From: Candidatus Nitrososphaera evergladensis SR1
Lineage (GTDB): Archaea; Thermoproteota; Nitrososphaeria; Nitrososphaerales; Nitrososphaeraceae
Direction of reading: 5' to 3'
NCBI RefSeq assembly: GCF_000730285.1
Contig: NZ_CP007174.1
Location: 2,728,001 to 2,792,000 of the forward strand
Length of the DNA stretch: 64,000 nucleotides
Shown here piece after piece: positions 4,790 through 46,995 of this stretch (the first letter of the stretch is position 1; every line of letters begins with the position of its first letter). A program made the position numbers and the translations under genes. The notes under the pieces were generated by a model. That model was not told the origin of the DNA and ran no database searches. It was given only the letters and a program-made list of their open reading frames with translations.

Positions 4790-5665
4790 ATGCCTACAAC
4801 AAAGTGCGTCGCCTTCCATTCCTACAAAGGGGGCACCGGCAAGACCACCATTGCCGCAAACTGCGCCGCGCTTTTGGCAAAAAAGGGCTTCAAGGTGGCG
4901 CTCCTTGACCTTGACGTCTATGCGCCAAGCCTCTACACTTATTTTGGAAGCGAGCCCAGAAAGTGGCTCAACGACTACCTCCTTGGCGACGCGGCGGTAG
5001 AAGACGTCATGACCGACGTCACGGAAACGGTTCGTGAATACACCCGGAAATACGACGCGGGCGGAAGGGTGCAGGACGGCGGAAGATTGTGGCTTGGATT
5101 TTGCAGCATGCGAAAGGAAGAGGTCTACAAGCTGGACAGCAGCACGGCGGAATCTTCAAAGTCGCAGCTGCGCCGGTTCATACTGTTGCGGGAGCAGCTT
5201 ATCTCAAACTATGACCTGGACTATATCATAATTGACACCAGCCCCGGCATACGGTACTGGTCCATCAACGCGCTCGCCGTGGCCGACGCGCTCTTTCTCA
5301 CGCTAAAGATGGGCGACATCGACATCGAGGGCACGAACAAGCTGGCCTCGGAAATATACAGCTCGCTGACAAAGTACGGCACAAGGTCGTTCCTGCTGCT
5401 GAACAGGGTGGCAGGCTACTGCGTGCCCGAAGCCCATTTTGCGGGCAGTGATGATGTCAGGATGGCAGTAACAGAAGAAGGAGACAGCGCAGACATTGCC
5501 GGCGTGCTTGCGGGCAAGACTGGCATGGAAGTCATTTCTTCGATACCGTGCTATTGCGACATACAGTTCAGCAGGAAGGAGTTCCTGACCGCCCTTGTGC
5601 AGCCGGGCCACCCGTTTACAAAGCAGGTGGAAAGGCTCATCGAGGCCGTGCAGATCAAAGTTTAA
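4790..5665 (+). CDS. ParA/MinD-type P-loop ATPase
   Basis: A 291-residue ATPase with a deviant Walker A motif KGGTGKTT (residues 13-20) typical of the MinD/ParA/Mrp class. It is followed by VALLDLDVYAPSL and by the Walker B-like YIIIDTSPG (about 144-152). These proteins usually dimerise on ATP and position other molecules or load cofactors. No C-terminal amphipathic membrane helix of MinD is obvious, and there is no ParB-like partner nearby, so the cargo is unknown. The next gene, a RecA-type ATPase/cyclase fusion, begins 67 nt downstream in the same direction and may share its transcript. Confidence 0.85.
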   Translation: MPTTKCVAFHSYKGGTGKTTIAANCAALLAKKGFKVALLDLDVYAPSLYTYFGSEPRKWLNDYLLGDAAVEDVMTDVTETVREYTRKYDAGGRVQDGGRLWLGFCSMRKEEVYKLDSSTAESSKSQLRRFILLREQLISNYDLDYIIIDTSPGIRYWSINALAVADALFLTLKMGDIDIEGTNKLASEIYSSLTKYGTRSFLLLNRVAGYCVPEAHFAGSDDVRMAVTEEGDSADIAGVLAGKTGMEVISSIPCYCDIQFSRKEFLTALVQPGHPFTKQVERLIEAVQIKV

Positions 5666-5732
5666 GTGCAAACTTTGTGCTTCATAATACCTCACACACA
5701 AAAGAGGGCACATACAGCGTTTGGTCAAATCC

Positions 5733-7190
5733 ATGCACGACGATGGTGATGTAGCAGTAGTAGAATCGATCCCCGGTCTGCGCCACGTTTTTTTCAAGGG
5801 CGCGCTCCCAAAGGGGGCTTTCTTGCTCACCGGGCCTGCCGGCTCGGGCAAGACCATGTACTGTATGCAGTTTCTGCGGGACGGGATTGCAGCAGGGGAG
5901 CGCTGCCTGTACGTCAGTTTTGATCCGCTCTTTTCCAAAGAGAAATTCAGAGAATCGCTTGGAAGCCAGAAGGATGATTATGAGGAGTCATTCATTGCGC
6001 CCACTACCGCATCTTTTTTCAAGAGCGGAAAAAAAGACCCAGGCAGAGCTGCGGCCCTCCTTGAGCAGGTGCGCAGAGCTGTTGATTCTGGCGCGCCGGC
6101 AAGAGTCGCTGTTGACTCTGTAACTCATCTGCTCCCCCACTTTTCAGAAGGCGAGGTGCTGGAGATTGTCGCAGAGCTTGCCAGTGTTTTGAGGGGCGCC
6201 AGCGCAATGGCGATAATCACGCTCACGACCGTGCCGTCAAAAGGTGATCTGTCAGACACTATCGCGTCGCTTTTGGACGGCACGCTGCAGATAAAGCTGG
6301 AAGACGAGGGAAAAGATCTTGCAAGGAGCCTGCGGCTGCTTGCAGTCAGGGGGACGTACCACAACCCTGCGTGGGCCAGATTCTCGATAACAGAGAAAGG
6401 CACCCTGATGTTTGGGCAGGAGGAGCAGGAGGACGACGGGCAGGCGCAGGCAGAGCCGGCGATAACATGCAAGCTGTGCGACAAGCCTATCGCGGGCAAG
6501 GTCGCTTATGATGCAGACGCCCCGTTCCACCCGCACTGCCTTGAAACGTACAGGAAGCTGAGCGACATTTACGGATCAAGCGTCGTCTATGCAATTCCCG
6601 TCGGCGTCATAAACGCCAGCTTTTTTTTCATAGACATCGTCGGGCTTTCTGACCCCTCTCTGTCCGTGGAAAAGCAGATCAAAAAAATAGAGAACCTCAA
6701 CAGGCTCATCAGCTCCTGCGACGCAGTAGCCAGGGCGCCAAAGGACAAGAGGATAATCCTCCCCACAGGAGACGGCATGGCCATCGGCTTTCTGATGAAC
6801 CCCGAGCTCCCCTTGCAGCTGAGCATGCAGCTGCACCGCAAGCTGGGCGCCTTTAACAAAAGTGCCGGCGCGGGCGAGGCCATAGGCGTCAGGATAGGGC
6901 TGAGCGCAGGGCCGGTGTTTGTAGTGTCAGACATCAACGGCAACCAGAACGTGTGGGGCCCCGGCATAATCCTCGCCCGCAGGGTGATGGACATTGGAGA
7001 CGACAGGCACATACTCTTGGCCGACAGCCTCGCAGAGCAGCTGATAAACCTAAAGGACGAGTACAGGAGGATAATAAAGCTGGTCAGTCCGAAATTTACG
7101 ATAAAGCACGGGCAGGCGATCAAGGTGTACTCGGCGTCGTCTGCAGATTTTGGCAACCCCAAGGTGCCCGCAAGGCTTGCGGCTGGCTAG
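5733..7190 (+). CDS. RecA/KaiC-type ATPase fused to class III cyclase-like domain
   Basis: Numbering below is from a TTG at 5721; the first ATG is at 5733. Residues ~15-235 are a RecA/KaiC/GvpD-like ATPase with GPAGSGKT (38-45) and the VAVDSVTHLLPH Walker B region (129-140). Residues 250-273 form a small treble-clef/LIM-like zinc site (C250, C253, H270, C273). Residues ~298-470 resemble a class III nucleotidyl cyclase: FIDIVG (metal Asp305), PTGDGMA (Asp351) and GPGIILARR. In the last motif the usual transition-state Asn is Ile while the Arg remains, and the purine-selecting Lys before GDG is absent. Catalysis is therefore doubtful, and it may be a nucleotide sensor or a divergent cyclase. 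The gene follows a ParA-like ATPase. Confidence 0.8.
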   Translation: MHDDGDVAVVESIPGLRHVFFKGALPKGAFLLTGPAGSGKTMYCMQFLRDGIAAGERCLYVSFDPLFSKEKFRESLGSQKDDYEESFIAPTTASFFKSGKKDPGRAAALLEQVRRAVDSGAPARVAVDSVTHLLPHFSEGEVLEIVAELASVLRGASAMAIITLTTVPSKGDLSDTIASLLDGTLQIKLEDEGKDLARSLRLLAVRGTYHNPAWARFSITEKGTLMFGQEEQEDDGQAQAEPAITCKLCDKPIAGKVAYDADAPFHPHCLETYRKLSDIYGSSVVYAIPVGVINASFFFIDIVGLSDPSLSVEKQIKKIENLNRLISSCDAVARAPKDKRIILPTGDGMAIGFLMNPELPLQLSMQLHRKLGAFNKSAGAGEAIGVRIGLSAGPVFVVSDINGNQNVWGPGIILARRVMDIGDDRHILLADSLAEQLINLKDEYRRIIKLVSPKFTIKHGQAIKVYSASSADFGNPKVPARLAAG

Positions 7191-7278
7191 ACGAAAAAGC
7201 CGTATCTGCATACGCATATGGCACGAGGCAATAATACTAAAGCGTTAGAGCCGTCGTTTAGGGCAAACAACAACGGTA

Positions 7279-7296
7279 GTTAGCTAACCTTATATC
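7279..7296 (+). promoter_or_regulatory. Promoter of the DEAD-box helicase with palindrome
   Basis: The perfect palindrome GTTAGCTAAC (7279-7288) abuts the TATA-like TTATAT (7290-7295). Transcription would begin near 7318-7322, giving a leader of more than 100 nt, unusual here because most genes look leaderless. The same decamer occurs at 38514-38523. Confidence 0.5.
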
Positions 7297-7319
7297 CTTG
7301 TAAAAGGTAACAAGTTCTA

Positions 7320-7432
7320 GACAAAGGTTTTACGGTTTAAAACGGAAACGTCCGTGCGACTTTTGTGTCAGAAAAAACACACATACGCAAGAAAATACAA
7401 CAAAAAAAAGAGAAAAAAGTGAAGAATGAAAA
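7320..7432 (+). promoter_or_regulatory. Long 5' leader of the DEAD-box helicase
   Basis: About 110 nt separate the inferred transcription start from the ATG. The leader has a short hairpin (ACGGA-AACG-TCCGT) and then a very A-rich tract just before the start codon. Long leaders before cold-responsive RNA helicases are known to be regulatory in other prokaryotes; that reading here is inference. Confidence 0.4.
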
Positions 7433-8821
7433 ATGACGAAGACGTTTGCAGAATTGGGTCTGAGCGCGGAATTAAACAAGGCGCTCAGCGAGAATGGATT
7501 TGAGGCGCCGTTTCCTATACAGGAGGCAGCTATACCCCTTGTTTTGCAGGGTAAGGATGTCATAGGGCAGGCGCACACAGGAACCGGCAAGACGGCAGCA
7601 TTTGGACTGCCCATACTGGCCCGCGTAAGCAACGAGGGCCCCGTCCAGGCGCTGGTGCTTGTGCCGACAAGGGAGCTTGCGGTGCAGGTAACTACAGAGA
7701 TTAGCCGGTTGGCCAAGTACACGGGAATAAAGACCGTAGCCATCTACGGCGGACAGAGCATAAACATCCAGAACGAGAAATTGCAGAGAGGCGTGCAGAT
7801 TGTAGTAGCGACGCCCGGCAGGCTTATCGACCACATAAAGCAGGGCTCGATAATCCTTGACGACGTCAAGTTTGTCGTCCTGGACGAGGCTGACAGGATG
7901 CTTGATATGGGATTCATCGACGACATCAAGTTCATCCTGTTCTACGTCAACGAGGACAGGCAGACATGTTTGTTCTCTGCGACGATGCCGCCGGAGATCC
8001 TCAGGCTGGCAGAGGAGTACATGAAGGAGATAGAGCACGTACGGCTCAACGAGGAGGAAGTAACCCTCGATACGATAGAGCAGTCGTACCTGGTGGTAGA
8101 GGAGCGTGAAAAGTTCAGGCACCTCTGCGACTTTATCAAAAAGAACAGGGACGCCAAGGCGCAGACCATAGTGTTTGCCGCTACAAAGCAGCGCGCAGAC
8201 AGGGTTGCGCACCAGCTAAAGCGCGACGGCTTTTCCGCAATAGCCATCCACGGCGACCTCACGCAGAGGCAGCGCGACCAGGCGATGTTCAAGTTCCGCA
8301 AGGGCACCGAGGACATCCTTGTTGCTACCGACATCGCTGCAAGGGGAATCGACGTGCCGGCGGTCGGAAACGTCATCAACTATGACATCCCCGACGATCC
8401 CAACGTGTACTTCCACAGAATAGGAAGGACGGCAAGGGCGGGCGCAGAGGGCAAGGCCATCTCGCTCGTTTCAGCCGAGAGGATAGCCGACATGGAGTGC
8501 ATACTTGCGCAGACCACGCTTCCAATACGCAAGCTCAACGACGAGATGGGCATCGCAGTCCCTGTTGCGCAGCCACGCTCGTACGGCGGAGGAGGATACC
8601 GCGGAAGGCAGTCATATGGCGGTGGAGGTTATGGAAGCCGCGGCTATGGCGGTGGCGGGTACGGCAGTAGTGGATACGGAAGCAGGGGCTATGGCAATAG
8701 TCGCGGAGGAGGCTATGGCGGCGGAGGAAGGCGCGGGTACGGGCAGCGCCGGGGCGGCTATGGCGGCAGCAGACGCGGCGGCGGGTACGGCCGTAGCAGC
8801 AACTACGGCGGAAGATACTGA
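7433..8821 (+). CDS. DEAD-box RNA helicase with RGG-type tail
   Basis: An ATP-dependent RNA helicase of 462 residues. All core motifs are present: Q-motif FPIQEAAIP, AHTGTGKT (47-54), PTRELA, TPGR, DEAD (151-154), SAT, ARGIDVP and HRIGRTAR. From about residue 385 the protein becomes a Gly/Tyr/Ser/Arg-rich tail (GGGGYGSRGYGGGG-like), the sort of low-complexity RNA-binding extension found in cold-shock helicases and in condensate-forming proteins. It has its own promoter and a long leader. A hairpin just after the stop probably ends the transcript. Confidence 0.95.
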   Translation: MTKTFAELGLSAELNKALSENGFEAPFPIQEAAIPLVLQGKDVIGQAHTGTGKTAAFGLPILARVSNEGPVQALVLVPTRELAVQVTTEISRLAKYTGIKTVAIYGGQSINIQNEKLQRGVQIVVATPGRLIDHIKQGSIILDDVKFVVLDEADRMLDMGFIDDIKFILFYVNEDRQTCLFSATMPPEILRLAEEYMKEIEHVRLNEEEVTLDTIEQSYLVVEEREKFRHLCDFIKKNRDAKAQTIVFAATKQRADRVAHQLKRDGFSAIAIHGDLTQRQRDQAMFKFRKGTEDILVATDIAARGIDVPAVGNVINYDIPDDPNVYFHRIGRTARAGAEGKAISLVSAERIADMECILAQTTLPIRKLNDEMGIAVPVAQPRSYGGGGYRGRQSYGGGGYGSRGYGGGGYGSSGYGSRGYGNSRGGGYGGGGRRGYGQRRGGYGGSRRGGGYGRSSNYGGRY

Positions 8822-46886: not shown

Positions 46887-46995
46887 GCCCGGGTAGTATA
46901 GAGAAGCCCGGCTATTAGCAGCTGGCCTCGTACAGTCCGGTCCAGTATGGGGGACTGTCACTCCTCCGACCCGGGTTCGAATCCCGGCCCGGGCG
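46887..46995 (+). tRNA. tRNA-Asp (GTC) with an intron in the D-loop
   Basis: The acceptor stem pairs GCCCGGG (46887-46893) with CCCGGGC (46988-46994), discriminator G46995. The anticodon arm is GGGGA-CUGUCAC-UCCUC with anticodon GTC, the variable loop CGAC, and the T-arm CCGGG-TTCGAAT-CCCGG. The D-stem pairs GTAT with GTAT across an overlong D-loop. Removing about 35 nt (roughly 46902-46936) leaves the canonical loop A-G-CC-GG-TCC-A. The extra piece has its own pairing (GAG/CTC, GCC/GGC), so it is read as an intron; exact borders and a full bulge-helix-bulge could not be fixed by eye. A recombinase gene starts 10 nt downstream. Confidence 0.88.
46902..46936 (+). other. Putative D-loop intron of tRNA-Asp
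   Basis: The insert AGAAGCCCGGCTATTAGCA and following bases separate A14-G15 from the CCGG of the D-loop. Possible pairing GUAU/GUAC, GAG/CUC and GCC/GGC would fold it and bring the ends together. Boundaries may be off by a few bases because CCGG occurs twice. Confidence 0.55.

Follow-up and report, generated by a model that had tools for sequence, protein, structure and literature searches.

A conserved fusion of KaiC-like, zinc-like and class III cyclase-homology domains encoded next to a MinD/ParA-like ATPase in Nitrososphaeraceae

Introduction

Loss of the Lys/Asp pair that reads the base, together with loss of the transition-state Asn, would be disabling in most class III cyclases. In the cyclase Ma1120, the Asn position is occupied by Ala; the enzyme is active, and the substitution A164N strongly reduces or abolishes its activity (PMC4215837). 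Among the Pycsar pyrimidine cyclases, EaPycC reads CTP through Arg and Gln at positions -4 and -2 of the second Asp, and the clade D enzyme AnPycC has a C-C-C-H zinc site in addition to the class III fold (PMC11224242). Cyclic nucleotides including cAMP have been measured in archaea, where the synthesising enzymes are mostly unknown and few class III cyclases have been predicted (PMC8646023). A literature search combining KaiC, cyclase and Nitrososphaera found no paper, and an mBio 2017 study of archaeal KaiC hubs may mention the fusion described here.

The window is a stretch of 64,000 nucleotides of Candidatus Nitrososphaera evergladensis SR1, positions 2728001-2792000 of a single contig of 2,954,373 bases; its relatives in this analysis are Nitrososphaeraceae. 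The following features, all on the forward strand, are referred to below.

4790-5665, + strand: MinD/ParA-like ATPase with the motif KGGTGKT, directly upstream of the fusion gene (Pfam AAA_31, E 1.1e-18; ParA, E 8e-14)
5733-7190, + strand: KaiC-Zn-cyclase fusion protein, 485 aa from ATG 5733, 489 aa if started from TTG 5721
5769-6410, + strand: KaiC/RecA-like domain, residues 13-226 (PF06745, E 2.6e-26; Walker A GPAGSGKT, Walker B Asp128)
6468-6539, + strand: zinc-like module C246-x2-C249...H266-x2-C269, TRASH/YHS-like, from alignments
6600-7187, + strand: class III cyclase-homology domain, residues 290-485, from PF00211, AF2, Foldseek and the residue table
6633-6635, + strand: metal-binding Asp, D301
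6771-6773, + strand: metal-binding Asp, D347

Results

An earlier note on this DNA had read the gene as a KaiC/RecA-type ATPase, a zinc site and a cyclase-like domain in one protein, and its fold, fusion, zinc-like site and residue pattern are all borne out. A phylogenetic search for the same fusion recovered it throughout Nitrososphaeraceae, where it is common, and the fused protein recurs at 37-84% identity in many genomes. Ratios of dN/dS against the closest orthologue were 0.08 for the cyclase part, 0.11 for the MinD-like protein, 0.13 for the zinc part and 0.31 for the KaiC part. Given the copies in many genomes and the value for the cyclase part, the fusion is not a product of chance; it is a real, conserved and unusual protein, built from known folds. 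Within the open reading frame 5721-7190 (+), the closest orthologue has the same TTG, but GTG where the window has ATG, and TTG 5721 is thus a possible alternative start. Neither PADLOC nor PHROGs returned an informative match to the fusion protein, and a plasmid search gave no match.

The C-terminal domain scores 25.0 bits with PF00211 (Guanylate_cyc; cut-off 21.9). Modelled alone with AF2, it reached a pLDDT of 93.7 and a pTM of 0.91, and every one of the 50 best PDB matches of this model in Foldseek is a class III cyclase, with Rv1900c at the top (E 5.3e-11). The structure prediction that the earlier note had proposed as a check thus favours a cyclase fold, and the note's refuting condition, a C-terminal region without that fold, does not hold. 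In a profile search, Ma1120 was the best match (E 3.6e-10). The nearest described proteins are the class III cyclases Ma1120 (4wp8), Rv1900c (1ybt) and 3mr7, with which the domain shares its fold, the two metal Asp, the transition-state Arg and the C-terminal Lys. It differs from them in having Leu343 and Asn406 in place of the base-reading Lys and Asp, in a conserved segment, WGPGI-x-x-ARRVMD, and in its fusion to the KaiC domain and zinc-like module.

Residue roles were assigned from the class III literature by aligning the domain with ordinary cyclases from this genome and related ones, and tabulated for 45 related cyclase domains with 35-95% identity to that of the window. D301, D347, R387, W408, R417 and K458 are present in 45/45, so that both metal Asp are kept, as noted earlier, along with the transition-state Arg (R417) and the C-terminal phosphate Lys (K458). 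The purine Lys is replaced by Leu343 and the purine Asp by Asn406; L343, T345 and N406 are each found in 40/45 domains. At the transition-state Asn position, occupied by Ile413 in the window, all 45 domains have I, V or L. As judged from these alignments, the half of the site that would handle metal and triphosphate is strongly constrained, and the half that would face the base is rewired. The earlier note was right that the purine Lys and the Asn are missing, but its label 'degenerate' is misleading. The catalytic pattern is fixed rather than decaying: the substitutions are conserved from one domain to the next, none of the 45 domains has lost a metal or phosphate residue, and Ma1120 shows that a cyclase can be active without the Asn. 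Since that enzyme works with Ala at this position, the absence of Asn is no proof of inactivity.

In a phylum-wide sample, the cyclase subfamily is confined to the families f1, f9 and f3 of the order, which we infer to be ammonia-oxidizer lineages; the remaining hits are weak, with E of about 1e-11 or worse, and those that were read proved to be ordinary cyclases. Two further architectures occur in the subfamily besides the fusion: one has a cyclase domain followed by a C-terminal region of ~200 aa, and the other has a cyclase domain flanked by an N-terminal part of 90 residues and a C-terminal region. The KaiC fusions cluster in the tree, with 3 label changes against a shuffled mean of 28.7; its deep part is unreliable because of several long branches, and the KaiC-less protein of L034/L054 fits either an ancestral state or a loss.

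The earlier note had drawn no link to the MinD/ParA-like gene, which ends 67 bases before the ATG of the fusion gene and is kept at most fusion loci. In most of the genomes examined the two genes are adjacent, generally with a short gap between them or none, and few other neighbours recur; five fusion loci have no MinD-like gene nearby (L061, L063, L064, L067 and L071). The deviant Walker A motif KGGTGK[TS] is found in 21/21 of the MinD-like proteins and is shared with the closest NCBIfam model, a KGGVGR variant AAA ATPase, against which the window protein scores 76 bits, below the cut-off of 90. Unlike other MinD/ParA proteins, however, these form a subfamily of their own that is marked by two conserved motifs, IPCYCDIQF and HPF, and by its pairing with zinc-module proteins. 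The subfamily is present in 60/300 genomes, all of family f1 except for one of f9 (G043), which is also the only f9 genome with a MinD and zinc-cyclase pair, in this case KaiC-less.

The zinc-like module resembles the TRASH/YHS treble-clef domains in its C-x2-C...C spacing and the conserved helix-like segment that follows, but it falls below the Pfam cut-offs (PF24273, E 7e-4, 20.1 bits against 27; PF04945, E about 0.05), has D or H at the third position, and is tied to MinD-like genes. In 35 sequences, C246 is invariant and C249 nearly so, and the third and fourth ligands vary by clade (H...C, D...C or H...H); from this cysteine pattern the module would be expected to bind zinc. The same module, C-x2-C...F(D/H)...C, is also encoded beside MinD-like genes in other contexts: as a protein of 60-85 aa, as the N-terminal part of histidine kinases, or following a winged helix. 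In five genomes, 11 copies of the module were found, each no more than about 2 kb from a MinD-like gene, and a sixth genome, which has no such gene, gave only a partial match (E 0.002). A module is present within 3 kb at 31/49 MinD-like loci, several MinD-like paralogues being without it, and at 94 loci without MinD (466 kb) it was found solely inside the fusion protein itself. These counts come from homologous loci that are not independent events, and from a profile (A5) that often misses H...H variants and was built partly from modules beside MinD genes, so that the linkage concerns this module subfamily. The zinc site, earlier described as a bridge between two domains, is present, but it is not confined to this bridging position: the module recurs in other proteins and is linked to a neighbouring MinD-like ATPase.

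The full-length model (pLDDT 85, pTM 0.53) leaves the arrangement of the domains unsure; its top PDB matches in Foldseek are KaiC and PH0284. With these ATPases the window protein shares a RecA-like domain with Walker A and B. The KaiC clock protein has tandem CI-CII domains and a catalytic Glu pair, whereas the window protein has a single domain, and among the KaiC parts of the family the catalytic Glu position is unconserved. Also unlike KaiC and PH0284, the fusion family has lost Walker A in some members: by strict pattern, the motif is intact in 23/33 KaiC parts, the first Gly is Ser in 6 others, and the last Ser/Thr is lost in 4 (L052, L053, L068, L069). According to the motif table, 3 parts have Ser in place of the Walker B Asp. 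At the two positions of the KaiC Ser/Thr phosphorylation site, the window protein has Ala and Ser, and its relatives vary. The ATPase half proposed earlier exists as a KaiC fold, but the domain is the weak partner of the fusion, since it has no conserved catalytic Glu, a degenerate Walker A in some relatives and a higher dN/dS, and is absent from the relative in G043.

Discussion

The MinD-like ATPase and the fusion protein together look like an undescribed archaeal signalling unit. Our preferred reading, held tentatively and at somewhat less than even confidence, is that the fusion is the output half of this MinD-coupled unit, with a cyclase domain that binds a metal-NTP through a rewired base pocket. 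The upstream MinD/ParA-like ATPase would act as an ATP-driven switch or positioning partner, for whose action the zinc module is the probable docking element, and the KaiC domain would be an accessory part for ATP binding or oligomerisation. The C-terminal domain is expected to form the usual head-to-tail homodimer of class III cyclases, in which the metal-NTP would be bound by D301/D347 of one chain and R417/K458 of the other, and the base read through Leu343, Thr345 and Asn406. Counting against this reading are the missing base-reading Lys and Asp and transition-state Asn, the lack of a PF00027 match in this genome, the five fusion loci with no MinD-like gene close by, the MinD-like paralogues that have no zinc module, and the partial derivation of profile A5 from modules beside MinD genes. 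More generally, MinD-like ATPases of this kind may partner signalling proteins via the zinc module, with output from a cyclase-fold domain in some cases and from a histidine kinase in others.

The two options that the earlier note had offered, a nucleotide-sensing switch and a cyclase with a different substrate, remain the leading ones. We slightly favour, as more likely than not, turnover of an NTP to a cyclic nucleotide or related product over pure sensing, on the ground that no variation is seen in the two metal Asp, the Arg or the Lys, and that a natural enzyme does without the Asn. Alternatively, the domain may bind metal-NTP without cyclising it and signal to the MinD-like ATPase by a change in the dimer. 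Such a non-catalytic switch, a real contender that we nevertheless consider doubtful, would account for invariant metal and phosphate residues beside a lost base-reading pair and transition-state Asn; a KaiC part without the catalytic Glu suits a sensor more than an enzyme, and no classical cNMP-binding domain (PF00027) that could serve as a receptor was found in this genome. However, Ma1120 shows the Asn to be dispensable (PMC4215837), two invariant metal Asp are more typical of retained chemistry, and the conserved Leu343, Asn406 and Thr345 suggest a specific ligand.

A more specific version of the catalytic reading is unlikely as a whole, namely that a cyclase subfamily specific to ammonia oxidizers makes a different cyclic nucleotide and is controlled in Nitrososphaeraceae by the MinD-like ATPase, through a zinc docking module that histidine kinases also carry. 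That the cyclase fold is an inert dimerisation platform which binds no nucleotide is improbable: the lost base site and the joining of the domain to several different extra domains would suit a scaffold, but a scaffold could dispense with D301, D347, R417 and K458, none of which varies in the 45 sequences. Membership in the anti-phage Pycsar systems is barely credible and was rejected, for although AnPycC of clade D likewise joins a class III fold to a zinc site, it differs in the residues that read the base, in the place of the zinc site and in its gene neighbours, the Arg/Gln of EaPycC correspond to Leu/Thr in the window protein, PADLOC gave no match for the cyclase part, and no effector gene is among the conserved neighbours.

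The findings point to a defined cyclase subfamily among ammonia-oxidizer lineages whose active site can be put to the test, and to the pairing of a MinD-like ATPase with signalling proteins by way of a common zinc module.

Additional observations

The genome of the window contains a second MinD-like gene (L146:2293-5099), beside a cyclase of 225 aa, a zinc-module protein of 67 aa and a winged-helix protein that ends in a zinc module. At L158:4000-6858, L149:3546-7798 and L163:2492-4908, MinD-like genes lie beside histidine kinases with an N-terminal zinc module, and receiver-domain proteins are encoded nearby. Another MinD-like clade, without the zinc module (L161:3986-5811, L162:3280-4889, L164:4080-5905), is found near a conserved protein of ~140 aa that by eye is possibly Roadblock-like. 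A stand-alone zinc ORF was sought downstream of the fusion gene in the window (7190-7433) and is absent there; in six other loci, such an ORF follows the fusion gene convergently (e.g. L006:1297-1485, L008:3017-3220, L009:1297-1497).

Eight other cyclase-domain genes are present in the genome of the window (L130-L137); in those that were aligned, the purine Lys and Asp are retained and Lys takes the place of the transition-state Arg. One f9 genome carries the cyclase-subfamily gene in two tandem copies (L051:2759-5692). Elsewhere in the window, positions 46930-46987 match an Rfam tRNA model over model positions 10-63 of 71 only.
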